From positions 7,564,001 to 7,628,000 of the forward strand of contig OU612065.1 of the NCBI GenBank assembly GCA_914767715.1: a stretch of DNA of 64,000 nucleotides. Reading direction: 5' to 3'. This DNA comes from Membranipora membranacea (Eukaryota > Bryozoa > Gymnolaemata > Cheilostomatida > Membraniporidae). Under the pieces are notes generated by a model that saw only the letters and a list, made by a program, of their open reading frames with translations, was not told the origin of the DNA and did not search any database. Position 1 is the stretch's first letter. The number at the start of each line of letters is the position of its first letter. Positions 36,701 through 63,890 of the stretch are shown one piece after another. Made by a program: the position numbers and the translations under genes.

Positions 36701-39700
36701 ATTCAAAGGCTCTACACCTCTATTTTGATATGGGTCAAATTCTAGGCGAGGGGAGTTTTTCAGCTGGGCTGCTAAGAGCAGCATTGAAAAAACCCCCATT
36801 TTTTGCAGCACATTTTTACTGCCTTCCAGTTGCAGCTCAACTGTCAAATAGAGGTGTTGTACTGTACACTCATCCGGGTGATTATCCCTTCAACTTCTAT
36901 AACTGTAGAATCAGTTTTATTGAAATTCTCTAGTTGGTGTGTATCAAACAAATGAAAGAAATTCGAAGCACTGCATGAAAGAACATTAATGTAGCAGAAA
37001 TCATACGTTGAACTTTATCGGAACTGGCTTTTACTTTCAGGTTATGATGCGCTCGGGTTTGAGTTTTCTAAACCATACCTAAGAGCTGGACTGGAAAATG
37101 ATTTGAAACTAATTTGTGAAGGCAGGAAGCCGAGAGATGGTAATAAACTAATAATATTTTCTCCAAACTATACAGAAATCATTGCCATTGATATTCTGAT
37201 TGAAGAGTATCTATGTACAAGGTTTTTGTATTTTCAACCAGCAGCAGCAATGGCTGTTATAATGAGCTGTTTTGTTATAATATATCATGGGATATGCGGA
37301 TAATATGAGGTTGATGGTTATGTATTCATATTGATACAGAAGTGTTACGAGACCAGATAAGGACATACAAAGAGAAGTTTGAGATATCTCTACAGAGAGT
37401 CGATGAGATCGATGGACAGATGAAGAGATATCTCGATACACAGATGAATGATCCCGGTCCTCTCCAACAGCAGCAAGGTTAGCACTGCGCACGCATAGCT
37501 GATGAGATGAGACCCTATAAAAAACTTTTTTAAATTTTGTTAAAATACTTAGTTTTGTATTTAAATGTTCATGGTTGATACTTGCTTACATGATAGCCCA
37601 CTGTATGATATTGCATTGGAAAGCATGAAAACAATCCTTCTGATAAGATAGTTATGTTGCCTTGGTTAAGATTGTAACCTTGCTATTCCTGTAAAAGTAT
37701 AGACAAAGGTTAATAAGTTGCCATCTGATTTTGATTTGCAGGCCCTCCTCAGCCTACAGTAAGGAAATGCCCAAACTGTGGTAGTGATATGACCCTGAGA
37801 CAGAAATCCTCGAGCACCAGTTATCAGACACAGTCTAATACTCAGACTACTCCTGGTCGGAGTAAGATATCATACTATATCGGCTGTATGGGTTATCCTC
37901 AGTGTAGGAATGTTATGTGGTTACCTAGACAAGCTCTAGAGGTCAATGTGCTCGACCAACCATGTCACAGGGTAAGATGTGTATAATATCTATTGTATCA
38001 CTGTATTCATTCCAAGTTTTCAAGTTAGAAAAATATGATAGAATATCACTTTGCCCTAGGTTATTTCATTATGAAACCTTACTCGAATGCTCATTGTTGA
38101 TATTGTTGTGCCTTCTTTTTGGGCACAAAAATGTCCGTTACCCCAGGTGGTTCTGAGGGCATGTGGTTGATTAAAGCATTTAGAACGTAAGGGAGAAAAA
38201 ATTTGGAGCATTATTTATTCACACAACAATATGCTTTGTTTTCAGTGTGGACCTGATGTCAAAATGCTGAACATCAGATTCAAACCTGGCTCCATTCCTC
38301 CGTATATAGACCACGACTATACTGGCTGTGTAATGTGTGATAAAAACATACAGGAAGCCTTCAACTTGTCTATGAAATCATCGGCAAATAATCAGAATAC
38401 TCAAAACAACAACGGAAACAACAACAGGCCACAGACTAATAATGGTAACAGAGGAAACGGACCTGGTACTATGGGTAATAACAATAAGGGTAAAACAAGT
38501 CAGAAACCTCGGACGAATAATAACAATAGTGCTGGTGTGAGACCGAGACCACAGGCAGACAATCAGGGAGAGGGGGGAGATAATCAGCCAGTGTGTGAGT
38601 GTGGAACACCAGCTATACAGCTTACTGTGAGGAAGGAAGGGGCTAATCAAGGTATGCTGTAATTATGTTAATACATTGTGTGTGTGACATTGCTTCTGTG
38701 AGGGGGTCTCCAGGATTGGTAATCTTACTAATATCAGTCCAGGATACCTAGCTCATTTTGAAAATACACAGGTTTGTGATACTTCTTTTTAATGGTTTTA
38801 ACAACCACACTCTTCAATTTTAAGGACGACAGTTTTACAAATGTGATGGAGGGAAATGTCAATTCTTCACATGGGCTGATCAGCCTGCTGCTCCACAAGC
38901 ACCAAGACCACCAGCCAGAGGGGGAGTCGCCAGTAACAATACACCTACTCGTGGTATGCGCTCCCCACCGACTCGTGGTATGCACACCACAGGAGTGGAT
39001 CAGGGGAGACCAGCTCTGGGTGATGTGCAGAATAACCAAACAGTCTGCGAATGTGGGCAGCCATCAATAGTACTAACAGTCAGGAAGGAAGGTCCTAATC
39101 AAGGTAACCACTGGTACTTTTGTTGGTGACACAATTTTTACCAAACTCACAAGCCACAGAAACATTATATGTGTATGTGAAAGTGTGGATGGTTTTGCTG
39201 GTATCGAAGATACAGCAAATGTAGTTATGATATGATGAAGAGGAGGGAAACAACTAAATGTTCCTGTATCAATTGCTGCTTATATCAAATCTGTCAATGG
39301 CATTAGATCTAAATTCAGGTGCAATTAGTTGAGCTGTTCGTTCTTATTTCTAACTTGTGCCTACAAGATAGCGATAAAAGTGGATGACTATAATGCTTAC
39401 TTTACAGGCCGCCAGTTCCACAAATGCAATGAAGGCAAATGTAACTTCTTTGTGTGGGCAGACCAGCCCAATGATACCGTCTCAAGACCTCAGCACAACG
39501 CCACATTTGGGGGAACTCCACAGCGAGGTGGTCCTGATAGCCTAGATAATACAAACTCAGTGCAGTGCAGCTGTGGGCAAGAAGCTAAAAGGTAAGTTTT
39601 CAGGTCACCTTCAATGACCTATCTCTGGACAAGCACCAAATAGGTAACGCTGTCTCGAAAAAGCTAATCATTAACCAATAATGCTCACAGCGTCTGCTGA

Positions 39701-40584
39701 TAAACTGTGGCGCTTTCAATTGAGCTGCTGCACGTTATGATAAGTTGTAACTGACTTTCTGAGTGAATGAATTCTGGTCTGTGAACAATAGCTGAAGTGA
39801 CCTGGATGTAAGTGTGTGACAAAGGTTAGAGAGAAGGTGATATCGTTAGGATGAGTGTCAAATTTGAAGATATGAAGTAGTTGTTTGCCTTATTACAAGC
39901 TGATGACACATTACTGATATGATACTGCATGGCAGCAAGTCATAGTAGCGTCTCTTCGTATGAATGCTTGTGTAAATGTAACAAATTTACTACATGTGGA
40001 CGACAAAATGGAAAATTTTCTCAGACAAAGAGGGTCACCTTTGAGTTCCCATTTGTTATAATGCTCTGGTAATCTACATTTTTGTCTTACTTAGGTTAAC
40101 GGTGCAGAAGGATGGTCCAAACAAAGGACGTGAATTCTTTGCCTGCCAAAAACCACGAGATCAGGGATGTGGCTTCTTCCTATGGGCAGATCAGGATCAA
40201 AATGAGCCGCCACGAAACAACGCTGGGTCTGCTAGGGGTGGATATCAGGGAGGCCGAGGTGGTCAACAGTCAAATAGGGGTGGAGCCAGAGCTGGTGGGA
40301 ACACTGGAGGGGGTACAAAAAGGAAATGTGGACAGTGCAGGGAAGAAGGTATGTGGGTGATACACTGTTTATGGCATTTAAGAAGACAATGTTAATGTTA
40401 ATGCTGAGATGTTTAATCTGTGGCATCGTCATCATCGAAATGCACAGTCATGTTAACAACTGTGCTGTTCTCAACTAGTATTAGAAGCATGAAGGCAAGT
40501 TACGCTGTCTGTGAAACATAAGTCGATTTGTGTTGTTTGATGCTTTTAGGACACACCAGAAAGAAATGTCCTCAGCTGAATTGA
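30799..40584 (+). CDS. TOP3A: DNA topoisomerase III alpha
   Basis: Type IA topoisomerase; with BLM and RMI1 it dissolves double Holliday junctions, and it also decatenates mtDNA. Exons: 30799-30963, 31295-31428, 31665-31740, 32143-32251, 32400-32543, 32724-32891, 33088-33133, 33856-33985, 34246-34426, 34605-34711, 34953-35063, 35374-35499, 35753-35942, 37041-37139, 37340-37477, 37742-37971, 38246-38651, 38825-39103, 39408-39591, 40095-40348, 40550-40584; 1103 aa (human 1001). Toprim glutamate in [11 protein letters not shown] (E36), DCDREGEN (145 on), catalytic Y356 in SYPRTETN, and conserved [15 protein letters not shown]. The C terminus has a C4 finger (CPNCGSDM...CMGYPQC), an Asn-rich linker, three GRF fingers, an RGG segment and a terminal CCHC knuckle. 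The Arg/Ser-rich first 28 residues resemble a mitochondrial presequence. Confidence 0.97.
33212..33717. mobile_element. TA-flanked MITE, copy 1
   Basis: A 506-bp non-autonomous element in TOP3A intron 7, flanked by TA on both sides. Long terminal inverted repeats start GACAGTTTTCTGAGC and extend roughly 85 bp. A second inverted pair lies inside (TAGGAAAAACCTGCTGAAAG against CTTTTCAGCACGTTTTTCCTA), so the element is almost a full foldback. No ORF of its own. Confidence 0.88.
36151..36651. mobile_element. TA-flanked MITE, copy 2
   Basis: A second copy of the 33-kb element, about 501 bp and TA-flanked, in the same orientation in TOP3A intron 13. It is highly similar over its whole length, with scattered substitutions and a few small indels. 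TA flanks and GACAG ends suggest the Tc1/mariner group or a relative. Confidence 0.88.
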
Positions 40585-44201: not shown

Positions 44202-47200
44202 TTAGCAACTGATAGATTGTTTTGAGATTCTCCTGTTCATTTGTGGTTTACAGATTGTGATACTAGCAATGCTGTATCCTCTACTTGAGATAACTGTCTC
44301 TAGTGTAATTTTATAATCCCTCAGTGCTTCCATTAGTCTTGTTTGAAACTTGTTTGGTTGATATCTGCTTTTAAATACATAATCTTCTATCCCTGAAATG
44401 ACAGCCTTAACATCTGGCTGATTTTGGCAGACGCCAGCTCCTACCGGTGTGGATTCCACTGGTGGTGCTTCTGTAATTTCTTTCACGGAGGCCTGCATTA
44501 GTTTTCTTGTAGTCCTCCCCTTTTGTGCTGCTACATCTGCAGCCTTAATCACATCAACTGCCTTAATTACATCTGCATCGCGGCTTTTCTCTGACTCAAA
44601 TCTCCTTGACCTGGCCATCATTGCGGAAGAGGTCCTTTTCGATTTACTTTTTTCTATGCCGAGAGTGTTTGGCTTCAATAGTTTGGCCTGAAAAACAGAT
44701 TATGACTCAGTAAAATGTGACATCAAAATCTCAAGCAGTTGAAAATTTTCATAATAGGCAAAGGTTATAGATCGCAGTTTTGTCGACAATCCAAATATCT
44801 AAAAAAAAGTATGAGATGAGTTGGTGTCGAAAAGATCATTGGCTGGCTGCAGCCAATTGTGCTCTTTCAATATATATCAACCCCTGCTAAAAGTGGCAAT
44901 TTAATTATTAAAATTGACTGGAGGAGGTTTGACCACTGTTTATGGCAGAGTTTTTTGGCTGATTGCAATGATTTCCTTACATAATGTTGCACAAAAAGAA
45001 GCAAAATACCAAATTTGTTGACAAAGACTCAAAGAAATCGCCAAGCATTCTTTAAAAGAAATTATGTGGAGAAGTTTCACTCGAACCTATTACTATTAGC
45101 ATTTGGTGGTTAATGAATTTATTTATTTGAAAGCAGATATATACCTGGCTCCATTTGTTTCTTCTAGGTGAAGAGGTTTTAACATGCATCGAAGATTTCG
45201 GTTTTTCAAGCTTTATCATAATATTATTATGTCGGCTTGAAGGTCTTGCTTGTGTATCAGAGGCATGACTTCTCAGTATGGTGTAGTCAGCAGACTCCGA
45301 TGCATCACTGTCTGCTCCCACATGTGGATATGGTGTGATATTCTCATATGATGATGATCTCTGGAAGGTGCTTGCTTTCTTGTGTACGACTGGATCAACC
45401 ACCTAAAATTGAAAATTCAGGGACAGCCTTGTCTGTTAATAAGGTATTCTCTTTTTTAAATAAAGAACACAGTTATTCAAAGTCCTAGTTCATCTCGCTG
45501 AATAAAGGTATTTGATCAAGTAAAAAATTACACGACTAGATGTGTTGGCAAAATATGATGTCATATTTACCTTTTTGCCCTTTAGTTGACTTGCTGTAGC
45601 ATTGTATGACAGTTTTGTAAGTCTGCGCAGTTCATATCTTAGCAGTTTCTCTATAGGGATTGGTTCTGCTAAGGGAGTCTTCCTTCCACTCCTATTAGAT
45701 CCTAACCTTTCGAGACGACGTAAATCTCCTGCAGACATGTTGACATCTAGCGAGATGTGTCGAGGTTGTGCTACAGGCTTCGAAGGCAGGTCCTTCTCTT
45801 TTACTCTAGATGAGTCGTCTCTATAAATATCTTTTGCTGAAACATGTGATGAGAAATGCTGAATACCTAACCCTACAGTAGCTGAAAATAAAAAAATGCA
45901 GATTTACTTGAACATTATTGGCCTGTTTGCTCAATTTGAAAGTACACCCAGCTTAAACTTAATATTGAAGTGTTGGTTCTGTGTACATCAGATTTTTAGC
46001 AGTATCTGTATGGGTATGCTTTGTCAAGGTGGTCAATGCCGTCTCTAGCTAAGTTTAAATTTGATTGCATGAAAGCAGCACTCGCTTGCTCTGCACAGTT
46101 TGGCCAAGGGTAAGGGCTAAGGTAATATATTCATGCGGTAAGCCAGACAACTACATACATGTATAAGTATGATCAGGCCTAGCTTCAGTAAGCTGATCAT
46201 CAGTACTGTATTGTGGGATATCCGACTCATGGAATACATGCTCTGTCCCTCCATCCACCGCCTGCTGTGATGACGTCTCAGATACTGCTCTTCCTGTTTT
46301 ATTTAGGTTTTCCAAAGCAGCTGCAGAATATAATTACAACATATGGTTTCTGATCTTGCTCACTCACTCATGATGTGTGGTGGTAGGATAATTATCTGCT
46401 TCAACTCAATTATATAGCGATATAAGTTATGCCCCCGATGTATATAAGAAGACAACTCTAGTTGTTAACATTCTCGCTAGCTTGTCATCAGGGAGTTTGG
46501 GATATACCCTCCCTGTTGTCATCAAAGCTATTATCTTCTGACTTTTTATTGTTTCGATTTTTTATTTTCGTTGAGCAAAACAGTAGAGGCAGTAATCATA
46601 ACAATTCATTGCAACTGAATGAAAGGGATTTCCCATAGCCCTACCTTTTCTGGCAGACAGCAGGTTGCTTACTTCATTATATTTGGACTTGGCTTGTTTT
46701 TCCTGTTGCTTCGCACGCCTCTTTGCTCTTTTGCTCAAAAAGATCATTTTTCCTCCTTTATCTGGAGATTTGCTATTCTTTTCCGCTCTGTATAAATTAG
46801 TTTAATAAAAATACTGGTTGCTAAGTTTTGTTTTATGCTTAAGCGCACGCAGCCGCATCCGCGCCGAATCACCCCAGCCCTCATCCCTGCGTGCCCGCAG
46901 CACAACAAGATCGCCAAGCGGGATACACAAAGGATGGTTAGCAAAGCAGTCATATGAAGGTTGTCATTATTTTTAAGCTGAAAACCACTTATCAATGATA
47001 AACTGATGCCAATCCCAGTAGCCATCCCACACCTAATGACATTTTGATCTTGGCATTTGCTCTCTTCGCATATGTTCTAGGTACAGTTCTCAGCTACTAC
47101 GTTTGATAACATTAAAATATCTGTGCCCCTTCACTCTCTAACATGCACTTCGAGCCTAGCCCATCTGACAATTCTCAAACTGTAAGCCCAGAAATCTGGA

Positions 47201-50200
47201 AAGTTGGAGGTGGTACTGGAATCAGATCTGTGCTGATATTAATCCAATCCCCCACATTGGTGATGTAAACTCTTTATCGCTGTGCTCTTATTTTATATTT
47301 ATATAAGACACAAAAACACTCACTGTTGTGCAGGTTTTGGTCTTCCTCGGTTATGACATTCTGAGAGAGTTGGCATCGGGCAGGTGATAGTTTTGCTTGC
47401 AGAAGTTGCGCGCAAGACTTTCTTACATGCCTCTGGCCATTCTCTAACTCTCGGTACAGGATAACTGGGATGAGTAGAAGCCTTCTCCGACTGCTCTGAT
47501 TTCAAGGCTAATATAAAGAGGGGATGTTTGTATGATCATTCACGCTGCATAGCAGGGAATTTTTCTGTGGAGATCCGAAACCATGTATGTTTGGCACAGT
47601 GCTGATTACAGTCTCTTAGGCCAGTCTGGAGTCAAGATAGATAGCGGGATGCATTTCACCGGTTTGATACAACCAAAAACACAAACATACTAATAAACTT
47701 GTATTTAATACCAACTAGGATAATGGTAAAGTCAGAATTAGGATGTGAAAAATTACTTACATAAGTATTCTTCTACATTTACTCCCTGTGTGGCAGCACT
47801 TTTTCTTGCTTTAAACAGGTTGGGGTTATTGTGTCCAGTGCTGCATAGTTTCCTAGCGAGCTGCCTTGTATTGAGTAAGTCTATCAGTGTGACCAGTGAA
47901 GATTCCTTACCGACTAGGCTCTCTACGCTGATCGATATATCCTTAAACTGGGACTTGTGTGCGTCAATGAAAGGTTCAAGGTACTCATAGTATTCTGTTG
48001 GCTCTTCGGTTCTAAAAAAAACAACTTTATTTCTGAAGGAAACAAGAATCAGATTTATCTGGCAGTAAGTTACTGTCTTGAAGGTGCGTCTTGCTCTTAA
48101 ATGAGAAAATTTTGGCAATATGCATGAACTATGAATACCCTGTCCTGGCAATTCACCTTGTACCTCTGATGTGTTGGTAGCTGGAGATTGGTTGTGTGAG
48201 ATTTAGTGGTATTCTATTAACAAAAACACCGTTACCTATTATCGCCATTAGCCGTTTTAATAAATAATTGGTAAACAGAATTATTGTACGATATGACGTA
48301 CCTATTGTAGATGAAATGTGGCAGCCCTAGCTCAACTCGGTTTTGGTGTCTTTGATCGATTTGGTCATAGTCTCGGTATGATTGGTTAGATCCAGAATCG
48401 CCCACTGGTGACACTTTAGTTCCTGCACCAGATATACTGATAATCTGGGGTAGTTTTTGCCTTTCTGATAAAATAGAAGAATTTAAAATTTAAATACCTG
48501 AAAATTTATACTTGGGCATCAGAGCTGGATCAGGGTGTAATGTTGTCAATAGAACGATGCTGGTAGATGTCCATTCCATAAGTTACTGTTGTTATGTAGT
48601 TTGCTATTAGGAGGTGGTTTATTGCTGTTGCTATATAGACATTTTTTATAGATAAATAGGCCAATATATACATATGGAATAGATATGGTTGACATACATC
48701 TACCTTAATAGATTCCACAAGAGCAGTGTTTGAAGTTATAAGTTACCTGGTTTGGGTGGGGAGTGATGACTGGATGGTTTAGGTGTCACACAGGGTGTAG
48801 TCACAGGTGTTGGCCTCTTACTACTGGTAGCTTTTTTCTTCTTGCCGGTTTTCACTCGTAGTGAATCGGTGGCAAATTTGGATCTTTTATAGGTTCTGGC
48901 GTCGATCAGTCTTTGACTCAGGAATTTACTGAAAAATCAGAGAAGATCAGGTCTCAATATCATTGCCACGAGTCATGAGTCATCATTTTGAGAATGAACA
49001 TTTCTTATTGAAGTCCATTACTAACTACCCTAAAAAAATCAAATTTGAAAAAAACAGCGGTGATGATTATTGCGTTCTGTAAATAATATGAGCTGACCTG
49101 GTCTGTTTGTTGAGCTTTGGAGGCTTCATATAATTCTTCATTGCAGAGTACTCTGTAGAGTCGAATCCAATCTCTTGATCACTGGATTGCATAAGAAAGT
49201 ATGTCTTAAAGTTATATTTCCTTATATAACCAGGGTGCCAGTCAAAGATCACCTCTCCATCCAGCACCTTACATTTCTTACTCCGTATAGCTTCACCTTC
49301 AGATTGCTTACCTACCTAAATTATGTATAAGGTAAAATATACGGTTCAAACTAATGATTATAGTATTTCTTTGGTTATTGGATAGCTCTTTATCTCATGA
49401 CCCACAGGGATGCTTGCCCGTGAATGTGAGAGGGAACAATTCAACGTTTCTAACTGCCTTTGTTGTGCCTTCTAACAAGGCTTTTCTGACAGGCTGTTAA
49501 CGAGGATCATTATTGTCAGTTGAAGTCTTAGCCAGTCAATGTGGCTGATTTTTGTCCCATGGTAAAGTGGTAATAGATTTGTCAATCTACACACATCCAA
49601 CCTACAGCAAATTCGTAACTGTAACTGTTTATCATCGATTTCTTTTAATACCACAAAACAGGTCCCCCAGGTATATCAAACATGCAATGGTAAATACGGC
49701 ACTGTCAATTGAACCCTGTCACCCTACTTTTACAGGTTCCTGTTGTCAGGAAATAATTGAATATGGCAGTTCTCATTGTAGGGATTTATTGTTTGCTGTT
49801 CTGCCTGGCCCACCTTTGCTCTGCCTTGTAGTGGAGTTCCATATTTATCTCCTGACTGTGGTTCCTCATCGTAATCTAGTATCACCATACTGTCTACTAT
49901 CCTGTTAGCTTTCAGACTCTCTAGGTGATGGAGCATAGTCGAGTACAACATACCATCACAGATTCTTATCTGATCACCATAATCCCACTTCTCATCAAAG
50001 AACTCCCAGAAATTATCTGTGCAATAGTCGATTTGGTCAAGTGAAAACACTCTTTGTCAACTCTTGGATAAGAATTTCTCATTCAAAAATATCCTGACTT
50101 GTCATTAAAACATCATATTGGGTGCATCTATGGGTTGAACGTAATTCATACCGGGCATTCGTTAGCGTGCTCCAACTCTGCCCAGGGCACTGCTAGTGGC

Positions 50201-50953
50201 ATTCCGTTTTCAATTTTGTAATAGAAAAGTAATGGAATGCCACAACCAACAACCAGGGCAAGGGGCCATTGATGATTGGCATCAAGCTGAGTATTTCTAG
50301 CTAATTGACAGATTAATGATTTGGTGACCGTTGTAAATGTTGTTACCTTCGGATAATCCATATAGTTTGATTGCTATTTTTGAGGTCCAACTCTCTATCC
50401 AGATAAATGATTCACTTGGATGGAATTCCTCAGATAATCTCCATTCGTCAGCACCTACATCATTCACCACTTCAAACTTGTTGTCGGGTTTGCGAAAGCT
50501 GTACCAGTGCTCAGGAGTAAGCCCAGGCTGAGAGAAACCAAGATCATCCGTTCTAGAAAAACAGTTACAAAGCAGTCATCAGTATGATAGTTATTCTGCT
50601 AGCCTTATCAAGTAAGTTTATACACTTCCCAGCAATAGAAGTCAGATAATGTCAGTCATCAATCTGAGCGCCTTGTTCAGCAAGACAGAAGAGAGTACTT
50701 TACCAAGCACAAGATATATATTATGAATAGAATAGTGCTCATCTTCAGAATTCTATTGCATGAAGCAGTGTGTATATAGTTCAGGCTTCAGATTGCTGCC
50801 TCACCTGGAGACAAAGAGAGAAGTTTGATTTATGCTAGCAATATCACTACTCAGGTTTTCTCTCGGATCTGTACGAATAGGGGAGTCAAACGTTCGCCAC
50901 TCTGCTGCACTGCTCCTAAACTTTCCAATAGCTTTCAACACTTTTGGCAGCAT
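44202..50953 (-). CDS. Unrecognised 971-residue basic protein
   Basis: Thirteen minus-strand exons with consistent phases: 50953-50805, 50552-50347, 50016-49814, 49315-49098, 48928-48747, 48464-48302, 48011-47761, 47507-47324, 46787-46645, 46320-46159, 45881-45571, 45402-45145, 44687-44202. I do not recognise the family. The N-terminal 260 residues look globular (RTDDLGFSQPGLTPEHWYSF, FEVVNDVGADEWRLSEEF, NFWEFFDEKWDYGDQIRIC, VIFDWHPGYIRKYNF). The rest is mostly low-complexity, Ser/Lys/Arg-rich, with basic clusters such as GKKKKATSSKR and KRAKRRAKQQEKQAK that could be nuclear signals. An island EEPTEYYEYLEPFIDAHKSQ reads as folded. There is no signal peptide or transmembrane segment. The start is the first ATG, in a good context (TCGACATGC). 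Confidence 0.82.
46838..46930. other. GC-rich island in an intron of the unrecognised gene
   Basis: About 90 bp strikingly richer in G+C than its surroundings, from AAGCGCACGCAGCCGCATCC to GATCGCCAAGCGGGATACAC, with internal inverted similarity (CGCACGCAG and CTGCGTGCCCGCAG). It interrupts an AT-rich intron (46788-47323). Its origin is not recognised. Confidence 0.45.
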
Positions 50954-51374: not shown

Positions 51375-54300
51375 TCACTTCAAACTGCTGGATGTGGATG
51401 TACTTGAAGAGCCAGCATCATGTACCATTCTAGAAACCTGAGTCTTAAGCTCATCTCCCTGAAGTGAATAAAGATGTTGAAATTTGCTGTTTGCACCCAG
51501 TTCGAGATCATCATCACTTTTGGATCCAAGCCACGCTTGTTCCTCATCAAACTGATCCTTTTGATTCCACCATACATCAGCGCTGAATCGGCGTTTTCTT
51601 GTGATGACAGTGACTATCCCTACGATCAGTGCACATATACATGTTAGCGAGAAAGTGATACAAACACCAATAATCAGCCAGTTCACTGAAACTTTGGTTT
51701 CAACCATCTTGTCTATTAGTGTTTTATTCCCTCCAGTCTCCTTTTTTACCTCTTTTGTCTGTTCTGCTGTCAGAGAAACGTTGTGCATAACATAGTCTAG
51801 TATCTTTGCTTCTATAGCCGATTCGAAGGTGTTTGTGATTAGAGTTGTTCCCTCCTCAGTGGCTGTACTGTAGATCTCTGTAGAATTATCATCTTGAATG
51901 ATGGCCTCAGACCCATAAGTATCGGTGGAATTTTCTTTCATAATCCGTTTAAAAGTCATTCCATATTTTCTTCCTTTCACATGAAAAGTTGGATTACCAG
52001 TTGATTTCCACCACTTAGGATGTTTTGCCTTATGTTTTTTCAGAAAGCCATGACTCAATCTAAATGGTAACTTTGGTTCAGTCATTTCAGTACTGACTGG
52101 TGTCTTATGTTTAGGCTTGATTACAGGCGGTCCATCTGCATACAACTCCAACGCTGCAGATAAAATCTCTGAGTCATCCGCTGTAATCTGTAATATCTCA
52201 TCTAACCATTGGTCTATCTCATCTGACTCACCATTTGCCTTCGAAATCGCTTCTGTTGTGGTTGTTCTCCTTTCACTGTTATATTGTTGGAGGAGCTCAA
52301 CCAGTTTCGAAGTCATCTTATCATCATGTGAACTGGCTTCTGTGTTGTCATCATTTAAGACATTTTTGAGTGGGGTCTGAATATGTTTCAGATGTGCCAT
52401 GTTGTTTTCAGCCTTGTGGAGATGGTGGTTTTCCTTCTCAGGGTGATGGTTAGTGTGATGTGGTTCTTCCTTCTGTCTAATATCGGGATGGTACACAGCG
52501 TCCAGCTCATCTGTTGGTGTCTCATCTATATCATGAGGGTTGTCATGGTGAGGGTCAAAGGGTAGGTGCTGACTTCTCTCTATCATGTCACTGTTTGCCA
52601 AAGCCTCCTTTTCATCATGTTCAACATGTCTGAAAGAATTATCTCAAATTTACAAATGCTTTCATTGTGAGCTGGAATCAAAGATAAAGCTGTTGTAAGG
52701 AATCTAAAGATACAGCACAACCTCAAATCTAAACACAGATCTCTTACTTGAAGGGTACTTTCTTGAGGCAGTTTGGGAATACGAGGCAAAACTTATTCGC
52801 AAACATTAGCAATTGATGAACACTTGGATCGGATATCCTAAACCTAAGACCCCGGTTGACGCCCAGCTGTGCATCTTTTTATTGGTATGTACTGCTAGCA
52901 GACTGGTATGTATATTACAGACCAGTCTGTTTATTTGTTGTTGCAAAATTTTGAATCAGACAGGAGATCTTCCATGACCCTATTTACCTGTGATAGCTAC
53001 CCATTGACCTCTGATCTGGTACATGCTCATATGTAGGAACTATCGGCACGACTTCAATTCCATCAACTTCTTGTCTGTCTTCATCTGCGAACAATATTCA
53101 CTTATGCTGAACCATCAATCAACTTCTCGGTGTTTTAGAATTTCAATTTTGCTCTTTCACTAATAACTATGTCCATATACATGTACATATACATTTTGAA
53201 TCTGTTTGTTATTGGGCAGAGTAAGGTTTTTCATAATACATTCTCTATCATAATACATTCTCCGTTATAATACCTCCACCATCATATATTAACATAAGTC
53301 CTCGCTTGTTTTGCAGAGACCGGGAGAACAACAACCAACATTTATAAACATTTACCTGTTATTATTAGAAACTCCTGTATCAATAAAGGCAACCTCACAG
53401 ATACTGAAAGAAATGATTTGAAGATATCTGCTACCAGGTTTGTGGACATCATTGCTCATAATCTGAACGTTGACGAATTCAATACTTGCTCACCATCTAA
53501 ATGATGTCTGACTTTTGGATTCCTATGCAGTGAAGGTGGAACATGATCATCCACCCGTTTAATATTTTCATAATGAGAATCACCATGTCCTTCGTCGTGG
53601 TAGGAGTGATGAGGTCCGGCAGTCTCTTCGTGACCATGTCCTGGTCTATGCTGATCAAGTCTGCCATCTTCATCTGTAGTTGAATGAAAATTTCATATTC
53701 AGACGATTGTTGTTTGAATTACCTTGAAAGTTTTGTGTATACAGATCCTCATAACATTGCATCACTGTTGATGTCCGTACACGGCATTTAAATAAATTCA
53801 AATTTTCTATTTAACTGTAGAGAGTTTAGCATGTAACCTCACCTGCCTCCTGAGTCCTCTCATCCATATAATGCTGTGAATCTACATCCATATGTTCCAT
53901 GCCGTCATGTGTGGCATCATGTGGAATATGCTGTCGCTTATTGTCCCAATGCAGTACATTTCCCATCCCTTCATGGTCGTTGTGGATATGACCGCGTTTA
54001 TCTGTAACAATTATGAAAGAAGGCTAAACATACTAATTTCAAGAGATATCAGATACTTGACAATCTGGGTTCCTTCAAAATTATTAGTCTTTTAAAACTA
54101 CATTGTAAAGTCGTCGCTCCACTCTTAATTAATTTCTATACCCCAGTTCTCTGTGTCTCCGGAGATGGTACTGAAATCAATCTGTTCATGTCTATCTGGG
54201 GATTGATCTGGATATTGTTTGTTCTTGTTGTGCAGATCTAACTCCTCTTTTTCGTTTATATTCCCTCTAACTCTGGTATCGGTATGATGATTCCTGCCTT

Positions 54301-57300
54301 CCCACCCCATTGCCTCATGTTTGGTATCATCCTTTGTATCATCAACTGGTTTTGGTTGTACTTCACTTCGTCGGAATCCGGGATCTATAAGTGGTTTAAA
54401 TGTCTCTGGATGTTCGGCAGGGTTGTAATTATTCATGAAATGTGTGTGAACATGTAGATTAGGGTCATCATCATCAGGAATCTCTGCGTCCCAGATGGTA
54501 TCCCCTAACCGCTTATATGTAAACTGCTTGTCCTCCTCTAACATTTTATTAGTTCTCCTGTTAGCGTCAAAAAGCTCAAACTGGCTGATATCCCCATAAA
54601 TATCAGGATCGAATTGGTGATGTTTTCCAGGCTCTGATCCAAACAGGCTCTCGACCTCCATGGCGTCAATAGGATCATGTCTTCTGCCATCTTCTGCTGT
54701 ATCATATCTTTCATCAGATAGGGAGTGGTGGTCACTATCAGAGTGTCCGTCAATCCCATCAGTTCCCTCCAGTGTATCCACATGGTGGAGATCAGAGTCT
54801 AATACATCTACTACATGATTCTGATCAGCTTCAGACAACTCCCGATGTCCATTGTGATCTATCAAAATATAGGGAGACAAGTTAGCAGCATGTAAACTGG
54901 TGTACAATTTTTTAAATGAGGTTTTTGTTTGTGCTCAACTGAAATCCAGCTGGACAAAAAGTAAAGCAGCAAACTCATGAAAGATAGTATGTCTCTGTCA
55001 TCTTGCAGGAAGATATTGATATTGAGCTGTTAACTTATTTTATATATCAATTGTATTTCCAACTCTATAACCCTACATATTATACATGTACCGTTTCGCT
55101 CATTTCCCCCTTTCCTGGTTGTTTCCCCCTTTTATATAACCCTTTGTTGTAATCATTTAGCATGTTTTGAAGAACATGATATTTTTCTATCTGAATAAAA
55201 GTTGTTGTAAACTAACCGAGTACATGCTCATTCCCCTGCCAGTTATGGTATTGCCAGTTGCGTTTTGCTTGTTTCTCATGGTCCAAATGTTGAAGTCTCT
55301 TCCAGGCATACCTATGATAGTCTGGGACGGCGTTTGTAATCTCATTAGACCATTCATCATTTAAATTACCCTGATGGTCATCCAGCTCCTCTGGATATCT
55401 TGTTTCAAGCAGATGGTTTGGATTGACATAATTTATTGAATGGGGACTTTTATCTTTGCTCTGCTTTCCTCCAATCGTATACCCATCATGGCGAGTTTTC
55501 TTTCTTTTTATTGGCTCGTTATCTTTGTTTGGGTTGTCATAGGTGTTATGATCAGTTTCTATCAACCTCTTGCCATACACTCTACCATGAGTATCAATAT
55601 TGTGACCACCATAATACCCTGCCTCATCATGGTCCTGGTCCTCATCTCTTTTCAAGAATTCTGCATACATTTTCATCTTTTCTAGCTCTGACTCTGTTGG
55701 GTAGTGGTGCCGCTCAGGCTTTTCTATGCTTCTTTTATTAAAATGATGGAGCTTCTGAGCCAATATTGTTTTTATGTTTTCTCCTGTCAGCCGTTGACCA
55801 TCCTGACGCTCTGCATGTTTGATTGGATGCCGCTTTAGCCACTGTGCATAATAAAGCTGTCTAGCATCGCCGTCGATATGATCATAAGGCCAATATCCAA
55901 GCTTCGCATATAAATCTGGATCAAAGTTGTGCAGGGCACCATGATATGACCCGTGGTGTTGACCATCATGTAATGCATTGTCTAGGGTGTGATCATTGTG
56001 GTGCGGTTGGTGACTGTTACTGGATGCAATGTCATCACCTTCATTGACCATCTCCTGTTGTTCAATATTGTGGTCGTTTGGCATATGAGCTGATGAGGAT
56101 GCCGTTAATTCTGCTAAATCATTGTCAGTGTCATGTGATTCTATGTGATCACCATCATCATTTACAATCACAACCTTACCTGTGTGCTCAGGCTCATGAG
56201 GCTCGTTTCCGTCTACGTGATGTGGAGTCAGCTCCTCCTGATGAAGAAATGAATCATGATCCTGATCATCATTGTGATCATGATGTGAGGAGTGAAAGTC
56301 ATTGATATCATTCTGATGATGATCCATTCCTTCATGATGCTCATCCTCTCCATTATGTCTGTCTCTCCCATGTTTTGTATCATCGAGAAGAACATCGAGA
56401 TTGGTGTCTGAGATAGCAGGTGGTCCATGCTCATCCTCACGATGACCTTGATTGACTTCATGATCCATAACATCATCAATATCTCCATGCTCTGCAATAG
56501 CATCGCTGTGGCCTTCAACATCGTGTCCTGGATAAAATAGCTCTGGATCTACATCTTCTGCTAAATCCCCTGTGCATGAGAAATGAAAAGACAACTCATT
56601 TGACAACTTGGAATCTCTAGAGATGCCCACCATTACCGCCTAGCCAATGCGTTGACTCCGATATGATCGGCTGTCTGACGGGAAAGACAGCCAGTGTCAG
56701 GTCAAAGAAAGCCCGTATAGGAGAGGTATACACCCGAGGGTGCTGGGGGCTGGAACAATCAACAATGAAAGCTCCCCCAGTGGGACTCGAACCCACAACT
56801 CCTGCGGCACTAATCGCCTGGCAGTGAATAGCAAGCGCGCTAACCGATTGCGCCATCTCACCATCCCCAAAAAAAGAATGGGTCGATGGCGCTAATTAGA
56901 TAGCCCGCTATTCACTACTCGGAGTTGTGTTCTCTCATGCCACAGCACATTCCAATCCACCATTGCCACCCTATGAAACACAGCGTCTAGAGGTATAATC
57001 ATCACACAGCACAACAACTATAAACAAAAACATCAGAAACACATAATCAGTCTTGAGACATTCTTAGCATAGCTGCATACCTCTGTTGATGGCGACATCA
57101 AGTGGGTCAAGATTGTGAGGATCATGGTTTTCCATTGCGTCACCTGGTATGTGCAATACAGAGTGTGGGCTGTGATACTCTATCTCGTGGTTATCAATGG
57201 CCTCTCCTTTCTCAAAGCCAGGGTCTACCTCTATCCCAGCTGCATGTGGATACGGGTCCACACTGTGTAACCCATCATTGAACTCCGCTACAAAATTTGA

Positions 57301-60300
57301 TTGTTAGATAATTATGTTGTTTTAGTTCGTAAAACTACGGTAATAAAGGTAACTCACAAAGAAGTGCAAGCTTGAAAATACTCACGCAACTCGTTATCTG
57401 CTTGATGGTGACCAAGATGCTCGTTTGTATCCCCATGGTCTTCATGTTTTCTGTTCACTAAAACAGTTAATAGTAAATATTCATTCGTACACATTTATTT
57501 GTAAAGTGTGTTTTCTTGGCATAACCATGTAACACAGATAAACAGGCACTATACTCAAATCATTTGTGGCTTCAAAAAATAAATAAAAGTATTTTAGAGT
57601 TATCCACTCATATTGATTAAGAGCATAACTCCTACATCTGGATATGAAGTTAATAATTTATAGCCGTCAGGCTAGTCTATGTCAATATCAAGGATACAGC
57701 CGGGGAGCCGTGTACGGTATTTATCTTGATTCACTTGTGTTATTGATGTTTCATCACTTGTAACACAGTGATCACTGACTCACCAAGAGTGACAATGCGA
57801 TGATCATCCAGCTCTTTGGTAAATAGATTCTCTGAGTGATGGCCATTTATCCCTCTATCATGCTGCTGGCCTATGGGGAACACTTTCGAACCAGAGTGCA
57901 TATGTCCATCACTCTCTTCTTCATCTTCGTTGTGATTCGGTTGGTGATTGTGATAATCATGTAATCTGCTCAATAAATGGGAGGGCACAGATCCTTCAAA
58001 TTTTGGTCACAAAAGAAAAACTCAATGTCAACTTATTATTTTAATAGCAGAGGCTCAGGTATGCATTAGAACCAATAAATTGTACTATACCTCTCGTGTT
58101 GCTCTACTGGTTGGTGTTGCAGCTGTCTTTCCTGGTGGCGCTCATGATGAAAACTGTTTGTTTCTCCGATGTCATGCTGTGGGTCTGATTCATCAGGATC
58201 ATGGTCAGGTACATGTAAGCTATAGCGCTTCGGGTGATGGTCCTCACTGTGTATATCTCCTTTGACAGCTAGGTTATCATCCTCTGGGTGAGACCTTTCC
58301 TCTAGGTGCTCAGCCTGATGGTTATCTCCATGTTCTCCATCACCCTCTGCAAAATCAGGGCTATGGTGTTCCCTTCTTACATCGTCTGTATCATGATGGC
58401 CAGCATTATCATGCTGCACACGCTGGGCCTCCTGTATGAAATGACCTTCCCCATGATAACCCTCACTGTCATCACCATCATTTTTGTATCTCATATCATC
58501 ATCATCACTATCTGCGTGGTGGTTTCTCTTGACGTCTATCATATTGTGGTCTCTATCATGACGATGTCTTTTGTCAATCTCATCATGGTTTCTCCATTGG
58601 TCTTCCACCGCATGATCTTGCATACTATGATCAAACACCTGCTTAGCATTATCATGTTCATTGTGGTGTCGTTTCTCATGATCCTCAGTATGATGACGCT
58701 TATCCTCGCCTTCATAGTCATGGCGCTGTGAATTATCATGGTGGGCTCTTTTGTCCTCATCCAGGTCTTCATAATGATCTCTTTTACTATCAGATAGATC
58801 TAAGTTATATGCACTGTTGTGATGATTTCTTTTTGTGTTAAAGTCGTGCCTCTCTTCCTCCTCTTCCTTATTGTGGTCAAAGGTACCATAATGATCTCTC
58901 TTTTCATCTAATCCATGATGCTGTCTTACACCATTATAATCTGTTTCAAAGTCATGATTGCGCTTAGTCTCCACCATATGCCCGTCTGGTGGAATGTTAA
59001 ATACTGTATCTGGTAAATGTTCCTCTTCGTAGGATTCACTTTTCTCAGCATGATGCTTCTTCTCTACAAGATCTTCATTGTGCTGGTCCTCAAGATGGTG
59101 TTCTCGTTGCATAACATGGTCGCCATCGATGTGCCCATGGTTCATCTCTCCATGATGGCTCATTATCTGATCATCACTGGCATCCTCCTGGGCTCGAATA
59201 TCCTCCTCATGATGTCTCTTGTCGTCATGTATTGTCTCCTCGTCATGTTTGTGGTCTGAAGATGAGTGAGCATCATTGTGAATTCTTCTATCAGGATCTC
59301 TAGCCTCATGTTGCTCTCGATGTGCTTCGTCGTGATGATCTCGCCTCTCGTACTCATATTCATTATCAGAGTTATGGTGCTCTTTATTGTGATTGTGTTC
59401 CTGGCGTAGCGCTATCAGTACTGGATGGATTTCATGGTCATATTCAGGTTCAACCTGGTCATGTTGGAGTTTTCCTCCCTCATGCTGCAGAGTGTGTTCA
59501 CTCTGTGACTCGTGATGATTCTTTTTCTCAGTGATGTAGTCTGGGTTATCATGGTGTGATGATTCATGAGTGTGGGTTTCTCCATTCCTGTAGCCTGTAG
59601 CTTTTTCATGAACTTCCCTATCATCATAATCAAAGTATTCATTATGTTTCCTCTTAACCCAATCATTATCAATCTTTATTCCATGATCGTCATGTAGAGA
59701 TTTTGTCACATCAATGTGATCATCAGGCTGTTGACGTTTATCATCACCATGCTCCCAATGGGAATGATGCCCAGAATGTTCTCTTGGCTCGACATGGTCA
59801 ACATCATTGCCGTAGTCACCATGCTCATTGTGTGGGTTATGATGATCTCTCTTTAGATTGCTTACATAGTCCTCATCTTGGCGTCCATGATGCTCGGCCC
59901 CATGGCCATCCTCATGGTTAGCATAATCTCTTTTGTCGTGAGCGGTACCATCATCAGTATCTATATTGTGATGACTCCTCAATTCCACCACATGGCTCCC
60001 ATCATGCTCAGAGAGCCCACCATGATGTGGTTGCTCTTTCTTAACCACTATTGTCTCCCCTTCATCAAAGTGGAATCTGTTTTCAATATCTAAAATACAC
60101 AAGAAAAGTACTGTAAGATACCAAACAATGGTATGACAGCTTTCAACCTTACACAACATTTTTATTAAATGTGTAGATGGTTTGATTAAAAAGTCAAGCG
60201 GGCAGTGTTATATGCCAGTGGAACATGTTTGTTCCCCCTGGCGGTGTAGTGATATTGCCAAGTTTTGAAAAGTTTCCCACCATTACCATAGAGAACAATG

Positions 60301-63300
60301 GGTCCTAATTTGCCAGACTGAAGAATTATAATTTAGGAATGTTTAGGTACCTTACCTTTCGGTGTGGTTGTCATTTTCAAATGATGTTGCTGATATCTGA
60401 TATCATGATCGTCTGCGTGAGCCTCAATGTGATTACCATCTGTGTCAGGCTGGTGATTCCTCTTCCTCTCATCATAGTCTGCCTGCTTAGGGGCAGGCTG
60501 AGCATGCTGTCCCTCGATAAGCTCATGTCTCCCTGTATCATGTAATCTCTTTGAGAGCTGCTTATTCTGTGATTTTGTTTTGTTTGCAGTATCCTGGAAT
60601 AGTTTCTCGTGGCCTGAATCATGATAAGACCTATGGTGGTATTTGCTATCATGTTTATACTCTACCTGATTCAACTGATCATCATAATGTCGGACATTGT
60701 CCGGGTCATCTTGCAATGCTTCAAACACATTATCATCTTCAACTTCCGGCTCTGAAAGCTCCTCTGCCTTAGCATCCTCAGCTCCATCGTCAATCCAGTC
60801 ATGGTCATGGTTCCAGTCTGGCTCCCCGTGGTGGGTACGTTTAACATTATTATGTGGATAGTAGTTCTCTGGATGCCATGTCTCTCCATTCGTTAAATAT
60901 TTGTAGTCACCATGGACTCTCTTCTCCTTGTGACCGTGGTCATCATCATTATCAACAGGTACTTTATTTGTGTCATAGTTTTGATCACCATCAAACCACT
61001 TACGCTCATGTATTATCTCCCCTTGCCCTGGGTTATGTGATGAGTACTCTTTAACATAATCGCTGTGCAGATTCATATGTGGATCAATCTGTTTCACATC
61101 ATCGGGATGTTCAAAGTCTGTATGATGCGGGTATAGCGGTTGAGATTTCTTCTCTGGGATAGCTAAGGATGAAAATATGATCATGATAAGTGAGTGATTT
61201 TGAAAAAAGATAAAACTTGTCAGGATTCTGATAATAAAAGGTTTGATCTGGTGTTCGGGTTTTCTTTGTCCGTAATTACAGACAACTCAAAAACTTATAG
61301 GTTTTAACCTCAAAACAACCTTTTTGCATGCAAGTTCTTATCATTTTGCTGAATGGCATTTTTATCGAATTTGTCAGTTCCCAATCTAACCTTGAACCTT
61401 CCCAAACCTTCCACAGCAAGATAAAATAAGTCTCACCATGATTATCTCTATGTGGTGATTCTTCATGATGTACTGTTGGGTGATGCTCAGGTCCTGCCAG
61501 AAGAACACTCCTATCTTCAATGTCTATTCTACCGTGTTGACCATCAAGTGCTGGGTTTCCATGTGGTAGATGATTTACAGCCATTGTATCGTCTAAATAA
61601 CTTCTCCTCATTTCTGGTTCTTCTCGATGCTCATACGCATTGTGTTCACCTAGTTTTCGATATCTATGCCACTCATCCTCTCTTCGCAACTCATGTGGAT
61701 CATCATGGTGGCTCTCTTCATGTAGCAGCTTGCGTAATTTCATAAGGACAGCTTCAGCTTCATCAATTTTTAAACCGGAGGGACTGTTCTTAGCAGAATT
61801 ATCACCTGCACTCTGTCTGCCAAGTTCATTCTCTTCATGGTGGTCTACTGATTCATCCTTATGATGGGATCTAGTTTCATGAAGCAGCCTTTTCAACCAT
61901 ACCTCCTCTGAGAATCAAACAGCACACATGAATGGGCTTCTGCGGTCCCGAGGAACTCAGGAATCTCTTGGACACAAGTGTACACAATTTGTGTTCCAGA
62001 TTTATATATGCCAGACCAGCCAAAGAGGTAGTTATTTAACTCATTTATTTAAGCTCTGGTCATTTGAAAAACTATATTTAACAGGATAACTAAGAACTAA
62101 ATGCCAATACAGAGTTATCCACACATGCAAGGAAAAAAGACAACCTCCTGCTACATTTTTCAATGGATGACAGTATATTATATGAGGTGCTCTTACCTGG
62201 TAAATGATCTCCAGCGTGATCATAATCCTCCAAATAATCTTTGTTGTTTTGTTGATGATGTTCATTGGTATCTGTAGGTACTAAAACATCTTCATCATCG
62301 TCATCATCGTCGTCATCACTCCCAAAATCTAATGACTCTGGCCATTCTCCATTCCATATTCCATCGGCATGATCCCTTTTATCGTGCATCTCCTTGTGCT
62401 TAGAATGCTGATAATGTTCTGGTCTGTGGGCCACTTTTTCAACCTCTGAATGTGAGAGCTGATCATGATGGCTCTTTCTAGCTATCGCTGCGTGATGACT
62501 TTCTTCACTATTCAGCTCCGGCTCCCCATCATTGTGAGTATGATGGAATGAGTTGTCACCGCTGTATGGGCGCTTCACAGCTGGACTATCTTTGAAATCG
62601 TTTTCAATACTCATACTTTTTTTACTTGATTCAGACCAGAGATTGAGAAAACCATTAGAATTGATTGGCGCCTTTAGTGTGTCAGTGTGATACTGTTGTG
62701 TGTGGACGTCATCATTATCCATGTGTTTGTGAGTCCCATTGTTTGGTATGATCGGTATATTGTCTGTATGCTGCCTTGCTGCTTGGTGATTAGTCTGATA
62801 TTCTGCTGCATGGTCCGTTTCATGCTGATAATCTTCTTCCAAGCCGCCATCATTTGTCAGCCCTGCGTCTACAGAGTAATGCTCAGCAGTCTGTGGGTGC
62901 TTAGGCCATGATCTAACGTCCACTATTTCGTCATGCTCATTTGTCCTTGCTATGGGATCTGGATTGTGGTGCCCTTGTTTGTGCTCGCCATTTTCACCAT
63001 AATGATTTTCTAAATCATTTTCATGTTCATAAGTCTCATGATCAAAGTTTGGATGAAACTCATGTATACCGTGACTATCTCTTTGGTGAAGATCTACTTT
63101 GGGAAGCTGCAGTAAACTATCCTGCAACGATTGAGAGAAAGTCATACGCATATTTCCGTAGAAAAGGTGAAGACGGGGGATAACTGGGGTAAGGGTAATT
63201 CTTCAGATATTGCCATGAATAAATACAAAAAATTACAAATCCAGGTCTTTTAGGATTATTGGAGTAATTTATTACTCATTATAGTCATTTCCACACAAGT

Positions 63301-63890
63301 GAGTGGAGGATGTATATATTTAGTAATTAGCTGGTTACCTCTATTTCCGAGTCCCTTCTCACATGATTCGGCTCATGCTCTCCTGTGATATGTTCTGATA
63401 GGTGTGGTGTTCTCACATAGATCTCATCATTTCCCTCTTTGTCACTGTGATGTTGTTTTTCTGTCTCCAAGTGATGACCTTCGTGGGTGTCTGTTATGTG
63501 GTTATTAGTGTCTATATACACACAAAAATTCATTTATTTTAAATACGTAATATCACAAATTAAGTTATACCAAATTAACCTATTGGATAAATTAGTCCAC
63601 ATATGCTGAAATCTAGAAATTGCCCTCCTTCGAAAAAAAGTAAGCATTTCGAAAATATTAACTCTGCTATGATATAGAAATATACATCAAGTTAGTCTGA
63701 GTACCACCCTAGCTAGACAGATAGTCTGAGTACCACTCTAGTATCACCAACCTTTGTTATGCTCCTCATGTAAGAATGGATGATCCAAGCCTTGCTCCTT
63801 TAAATGGAGGTTTGTTCTCTTATTTGGATTATAGATCACCGTACCATGATTATGGCTATCCATAACTGTCAATCTGTCGACATCATCATG
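51375..63890 (-). CDS. Giant His/Asp/Glu-rich single-pass membrane protein, 5' end missing
   Basis: Fifteen phase-consistent exons in the window: 63890-63752, 63511-63339, 63121-62197, 61907-61437, 61162-60356, 60089-58091, 57965-57784, 57457-57386, 57287-57081, 56569-55217, 54858-54142, 54001-53843, 53673-53494, 53084-52988, 52629-51375; 2,911 codons before the stop. The gene enters from the right edge, so the signal peptide is not seen. The ectodomain is extremely rich in His, Asp, Glu and Asn, almost free of Cys, and includes a run of eight Asp. Dibasic KR recurs in K-R-(D/N/H)-H (KRDHH, KRNHH, KRHHTEDHE); about 15 KR lie in the 1999-nt exon alone. The last exon has one helix (WLIIGVCITFSLTCICALIV on), then RKRR and a tail of about 75 residues ending Ser/Thr-rich. 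No family recognised. Metal or Ca2+ binding, or a processed precursor, are inferences. Confidence 0.85.
53356..53403 (-). other. Possible 48-nt cassette exon of the His/Asp-rich gene
   Basis: Between two confirmed exons there is a good acceptor (TTCTTTCAG) and donor (CAG|GTAAAT) around 48 nt of open frame, phase 1-1, encoding a hydrophobic stretch VSVRLPLLIQEFLIIT. Its character is unlike the rest of the protein, so it may be a decoy or an alternatively used exon. It is left out of the main model. Confidence 0.35.
56609..56866 (-). mobile_element. tRNA-derived SINE, full-length-like copy
   Basis: On the minus strand it begins with a tRNA-like head: A-box TGGCGCAATCGGTTAGCG, B-box GGTTCGAGTCC followed by CACTGGGGGAGC. 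A body of about 160 bp follows, containing CACCCTCGGGTGTATACC and a TTTCCCGTCAGACAGCC region. It sits in an intron of the His/Asp-rich gene. A degenerate relative lies at 14459-14545. The anticodon arm is abnormal, so it is not a tRNA gene. Confidence 0.82.

Follow-up and report, generated by a model that had tools for sequence, protein, structure and literature searches.

A giant histidine- and acid-rich, predicted membrane-anchored protein with Lys-Arg sites in Membranipora membranacea: a possible pH-condensing granule-matrix protein

To our knowledge, how dense-core granules are built in animals without vertebrate chromogranins is an open question. The granins (chromogranins A/B and secretogranin II) are acidic, dibasic-rich, soluble proteins without transmembrane segments. 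HRC of the sarcoplasmic reticulum is a soluble, luminal, His- and acid-rich protein with tandem repeats and is far smaller than the protein described below; CD36-type proteins are anchored at both ends, and their one large loop is a folded domain that contains Cys and spans about 400 residues; and ZIP and ZnT transporters are multi-span proteins with short His-rich metal-binding loops. Chromogranins are reported to be disordered and granule-forming, and the purified proteins form droplets at pH 6.1 and none at 7.3 (PMC9526250). According to the same report, millimolar Ca2+ promotes chromogranin B droplets yet is dispensable, and Zn2+ yields droplets when dilute and aggregates when concentrated (PMC9526250). 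The His-rich proteins Nvjp-1 and Nai11527 of Nereis jaws are described as secreted and Zn-binding (PMC13120676); the word "transmembrane" is absent from the main text of that paper.

In this work, a minus-strand gene for a giant His- and acid-rich protein was reconstructed from the genome of Membranipora membranacea. The window, by which we mean the whole stretch of 64,000 nucleotides that was analyzed (C1:7564001-7628000), contains 15 exons of this gene between 63890 and 51375, with the same ends as in the original prediction. The window exons were joined from stop-to-stop reading frames and splice sites; spliced, they comprise 8,736 bases, with 2,911 open codons, TGA and no internal stops, and all junctions are GT-AG and frame-consistent. 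The upstream part was modelled from 30 kb of genome with a 1 kb overlap with the window, and it completes a model of 28 exons over 18.8 kb, from ATG to stop, encoding 3,730 residues. The start codon, with an in-frame stop 5' of it, lies 6.2 kb past the window end, and exons 1-13 are located at C1:7628053-7634191. The 27 introns of the full model range from 98 to 976 bases and are mostly of phase 1 (17), with 7 of phase 0 and 3 of phase 2. Features within the window are listed in Table 1.

Table 1. Window features of the giant gene
Feature	Position	Strand	Basis and remarks
Exon 14 of 28, first in window	63752..63890	-	Gene model; phase 0 in, 1 out
Exon 15	63339..63511	-	Gene model
Exon 16, with 8-Asp run	62197..63121	-	Gene model
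Exon 17	61437..61907	-	Gene model
Exon 18	60356..61162	-	Gene model
Exon 19, densest KR region (15 KR sites, 17% His)	58091..60089	-	Gene model
Exon 20	57784..57965	-	Gene model
Exon 21	57386..57457	-	Gene model
Exon 22	57081..57287	-	Gene model
Exon 23, 7 KR sites	55217..56569	-	Gene model
Exon 24	54142..54858	-	Gene model
Exon 25	53843..54001	-	Gene model
Exon 26	53494..53673	-	Gene model
Exon 27	52988..53084	-	Gene model
Exon 28: end of the His-rich part, juxtamembrane region of lower charge, C-terminal hydrophobic segment, tail and stop	51375..52629	-	Gene model
C-terminal transmembrane segment, predicted	51603..51677	-	Hydropathy maximum 2.73; limits by eye
Predicted cytosolic tail of 74 residues, beginning with RKRR and including an S-D-D-D acidic cluster; stop codon	51375..51602	-	Sequence
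Candidate polyadenylation signal AATAAA, 171 bases below stop codon	51199..51204	-	Sequence

Several other features were observed in the window. On the plus strand lie an acyltransferase domain exon at 6298-6582 (PF01553, E 4.9e-11), exons of a rhodopsin-type GPCR at 10993-15970 (PF00001 in both frames scanned; extent by eye), exons with many calponin repeats at 21675-25419 (PF00402 in one frame scanned; the others by eye), and, at 32558-40395, a gene that resembles DNA topoisomerase III and includes GRF zinc ribbons (PF01131 and PF06839 from scans of two frames; named and delimited by eye). Beyond the 3' end of the giant gene, at 44202-50575 on the minus strand, there are several coding-like frames, six of which were scanned with no Pfam match above the cut-off. 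An intron of the giant gene holds a tRNA-like match at 56779-56856 on the minus strand (Rfam RF00005, 32.5 bits), where ARAGORN called no tRNA; it is perhaps a tRNA-derived SINE. On a 14,741-bp mitochondrial contig, cox1 reads with the invertebrate code, and the order nad5, cox1, nad2, nad4L, nad4 was read by eye on one strand; mitochondrial gene order is described as highly variable in several lophotrochozoan phyla in a bryozoan paper (PMC3285623).

In the full model, hydropathy over 19 residues exceeds 1.3 in two regions only, one N-terminal and one C-terminal, and both peak above 2.7. The exon 1 product, MMAIKSKLGDGKGETACIICALVVLALLFAGSIALVVVLHTKD, consists of a short N-terminus with three Lys followed by a hydrophobic stretch of 24 residues, which exceeds the usual length of a signal peptide and is typical of signal anchors. 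Between the two segments extends a loop of 3,588 residues without a single Cys, the five Cys of the protein all lying inside the segments; those of the window part (2817, 2824 and 2826 in window numbering) fall within the C-terminal one, in agreement with the nearly Cys-free ectodomain foreseen by the original prediction. Judged from sequence, both ends look membrane-anchored around the Cys-free loop. With both segments left uncleaved, the protein would have two cytosolic ends and a doubly tethered loop; with the first one cleaved, it would be a type I membrane protein. The original prediction had proposed one transmembrane helix and an extension of the contig to find a signal peptide: the single helix holds for the window part and not for the full gene, which adds the N-terminal segment, and the extension yielded a 5' end with an ATG, where the hydrophobic segment found is more anchor-like.

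The predicted dominance of His, Asp and Glu is confirmed in the window part (H 12.6%, D 12.5%, E 10.2%), as are the gene structure and size (15 spliced exons, 2,911 codons) and the predicted C-terminal anchor. The loop contains 436 His and 786 Asp plus Glu, and its excess of acidic over basic residues, 396, is near the His count; the window part gives 361 and 365 His, respectively. With textbook pKa values, the net charge of the loop was computed as about -364 at pH 7.4, -97 at pH 6.0 and +8 at pH 5.5, with a pI of 5.54, and replacing His by Asn in the calculation for the window part lowers the pI from 5.34 to 3.93. The pH switch that had been proposed for the protein is thus present in calculation. 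In 80-residue windows of the window part, His count and acid-minus-base correlate (r 0.45; 1 of 1,000 shuffles as high). Locally exact charge neutrality was considered and dropped: local net-charge variance in the window part is not significantly lower than in shuffles at windows of 10-120 residues, the exception among seven sizes being the 200-residue window (39 of 1,000 shuffles as low), so the claim is one of global balance and coarse correlation. The window part falls on the disordered side of the charge-hydropathy boundary (0.328 vs 0.459), and a single-sequence AlphaFold model of the last exon has a mean pLDDT of 45. Tandem duplication was rejected as the source of the composition: the sole array found by Tandem Repeats Finder in the gene region, of 17 bases at 53231-53286, is intronic, and exon-to-exon alignment (351 pairs, composition-corrected scores, 30 shuffles each) revealed no convincing homology, with short matches and a best z of 5.3.

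Scanned in pieces, the 28 exons gave no Pfam match above the cut-off, and none to a granin, HRC-type or CD36 family; a PDB sequence search with three stretches gave no credible match. The sub-cut-off Pfam matches (Phage_Mu_Gam, CotZ and, for exon 1 alone, the Trypanosome TFIIB ribbon at E 0.004) were attributed to chance or composition, and PDB matches to designed helical proteins (E 0.012-0.43) were rejected. Within their own genome (339 Mb, 18 contigs), exons 19 and 28 each match only themselves, and no such protein is described in titles or abstract openings among the literature matches listed. The earlier statement that no family with this architecture is known therefore stands as far as Pfam, exon by exon, and the PDB, for three stretches, are concerned.

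The strongest signal beyond composition is the enrichment of Lys-Arg (KR), and of no other dibasic pair. When 361 dipeptides in the loop were compared with the expectation from composition, KR occurred 41 times against 10.4 expected (z 9.5) and was the sole dipeptide with z above 3, the next being QH (z 2.6), whereas RR (12 vs 7.7; 160 of 2,000 shuffles as high), KK (13 vs 13.8) and RK (12 vs 10.5) were not enriched. The repeated dibasic sites, which stood in the title of the original prediction with no role attached, thus exceed chance as KR (35 vs 7.2 in the window part, with a maximum of 16 in 1,000 shuffles) and stay near expectation as RR, KK and RK. In the window part, the repeat-like exon 19 has a KR excess (15 vs 2.2), and so do the other exons together (20 vs 5.1), with 0 of 5,000 shuffles as high in either case; the clustering of KR in exon 19 may partly come from an old internal duplication. 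KR is encoded by 12 codon-pair types. A DNA-level bias was rejected as the source: shuffling that kept the first and third codon bases gave 10.1 KR on average and at most 21 in 1,000 shuffles for the 35 observed in the window part, and no excess appeared in three antisense frames, three intron frames or sense frame +2, but sense frame +1 showed a mild one (30 vs 17.5, z 3.0).

The sequence context of KR is also biased. His occupies P2' at 18 of the 41 KR sites; the corresponding figure is 23 of 240 for lone K/R (Fisher 5e-7) and 7 of 37 for the remaining dibasics (p 0.03). Outside exon 19 the preference is weaker (7/20, p 0.01, window part). Such KR-X-His sites might tune cleavage by pH or leave metal-binding X-His N-termini. 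A Cu(II) amino-terminal motif, with His at P3', was considered and is not claimed (9/41, p 0.05). Since Lys-Arg is the classical proprotein convertase site, selection for cleavage in the secretory pathway is the simplest cause of the KR excess. As would be expected of a prohormone, a dibasic pair lies above chance in a protein of predicted luminal location, which holds for KR and not for RR. The KR-only enrichment points to convertase processing in a regulated secretory pathway more than to a static extracellular polymer.

The reading that we favour, tentatively and with somewhat less than even confidence, is that of a membrane-tethered, convertase-processed, pH-condensing granule-matrix protein, which by function, and outside the granin family, would be a giant histidine-switched granin. 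From the features above we infer expression, compartment, topology, cleavage, condensation and metal binding as follows. A giant, largely disordered luminal or extracellular protein, with a membrane tether at the C-terminus and probably a second one at the N-terminus, would most likely enter the regulated secretory pathway. At the neutral pH of the ER, the loop would be strongly negative and soluble. With the fall of luminal pH, first towards 6 and later 5.5, the 436 histidines would become protonated and cancel the acidic excess, and the loop would condense against the luminal side of the nascent granule's membrane, perhaps aided by Ca2+ or Zn2+ bridging of His, Asp and Glu. Proprotein convertases would then cut the KR sites and produce His/acid-rich fragments for release at exocytosis, with N- and C-terminal stubs remaining in the membrane.

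Several observations weigh against this proposal, for which transcript, peptide and localisation are all predicted from sequence. Gly precedes KR at just 2 of the 41 sites, so that classical amidated neuropeptides are not indicated, and the loop holds one furin-type R-X-K/R-R site (R-X-R-R at residue 321). The variance result at six of the seven window sizes, the mild excess in the sense +1 control, the weaker P2' His outside exon 19 and a possible old duplication within that exon count on the same side, as does the soluble nature of granins, which have no transmembrane segments. The dispensability of Ca2+ for condensation, as reported for chromogranin B, is a further point (PMC9526250).

The best surviving alternative, which we consider unlikely, is the one suggested by the original prediction: a cell-surface or extracellular-matrix polymer, intact and anchored, that binds metal or Ca2+ and buffers Zn2+, Cu2+ or Ca2+. 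The wealth of His, Asp and Glu in a Cys-free loop would suit it, as would the four N-glycosylation sequons that exon 28 encodes in its juxtamembrane region, all within 90 residues of the membrane. It leaves the enrichment of KR alone among the dibasics unexplained. Moreover, composition would predict 6.3 HHH triplets and the loop has none, a result matched by 8 of 2,000 shuffles; no His run is longer than 2, and the loop is therefore no poly-His repeat, unlike the His runs of chelators.

Less probable still is a structural precursor that would be processed at KR on secretion and give rise to a hard or adhesive product such as jaw, tube, glue or mineral matrix, with His coordinating Zn or Cu. 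Its model would be the Nereis jaw proteins, with which the giant protein shares its His-rich character, the secretion and Zn binding being those reported for Nereis (PMC13120676). The Nereis protein is described there as Gly/His-rich (29% Gly, 16% His), with a signal peptide and a size of ~53 kDa for a partial sequence (PMC13120676), whereas the giant protein has 5.4% Gly, an acidic chain and hydrophobic segments.

We give yet lower probability to a precursor of many bioactive peptides, either neuropeptide-like or antimicrobial-peptide-like. KR sites do bound short segments (among them segments 7-32 residues long in exon 19 and, in exon 23, four that are 19-31 residues long), but these are not copies of one peptide, similarity between exons is weak, GKR amidation signals number two, and the protein is far bigger than the peptide precursors familiar to us. 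Finally, an in silico artefact, in which chance would have linked exons from two genes or open frames that are not expressed, is very improbable: the model is known here from genome sequence and includes one doubtful junction (the weak exon 10 acceptor gcagag/GAA, where a better-looking AG two bases earlier breaks the frame), but all 27 junctions are GT-AG and preserve the reading frame through 3,730 codons, stops number 166 and 524 in the two alternative sense frames of the loop, exons of the window part have a GC content of 0.43 vs 0.36 for its introns, and most exons share the His/acid-rich composition.

If the granule-matrix reading is true, such a precursor, anchored in the membrane and condensing through a histidine switch, would give a directly testable answer to how dense-core granules form without chromogranins, and a natural design for a pH-dissolving protein material. 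A bolder version, which we regard as speculative and improbable, is an undescribed protein class: a Cys-free, His/acid-balanced loop of ~3,600 residues, fixed to the granule membrane at both ends, with a pI of ~5.5 set by His and with KR-X-His coupling cleavage to acidification, which would act as a self-dissolving scaffold unrelated by sequence to granins. Whatever its role, a protein of 3.7 kilo-residues with KR as its sole strong dipeptide signal is unusual.

Compared with the known systems, the giant protein shares a His-rich composition with the loops of ZIP and ZnT transporters and differs in having just two hydrophobic segments. With CD36-type proteins it would have in common two membrane segments near the termini and one large loop, a topology that is predicted for the giant protein, whose loop is free of Cys and has no CD36 Pfam match. 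It resembles HRC in its His- and acid-rich luminal character, the lumen being predicted here, and differs by the lack of an exonic tandem array and of an HRC Pfam match and by its KR sites and hydrophobic segments. The granins, like the giant protein, are disordered and acidic with many dibasic sites, represented here by the KR excess and by the disordered side of the charge-hydropathy plot; the giant protein is several times larger than granins, has 12% His and a loop without Cys, and is enriched in KR only. It also carries one or two predicted membrane anchors and matches no Pfam granin, and because of the absent sequence match and the predicted membrane segments it is not filed as a granin. 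Granins have been reported to condense when acidified and to respond to Ca2+ and Zn2+ (PMC9526250); the counterpart here is a calculated charge. In the proposed mechanism, histidines would strengthen such a switch and the anchors would hold the condensate at the granule membrane. The granin is the closest working model for the giant protein.
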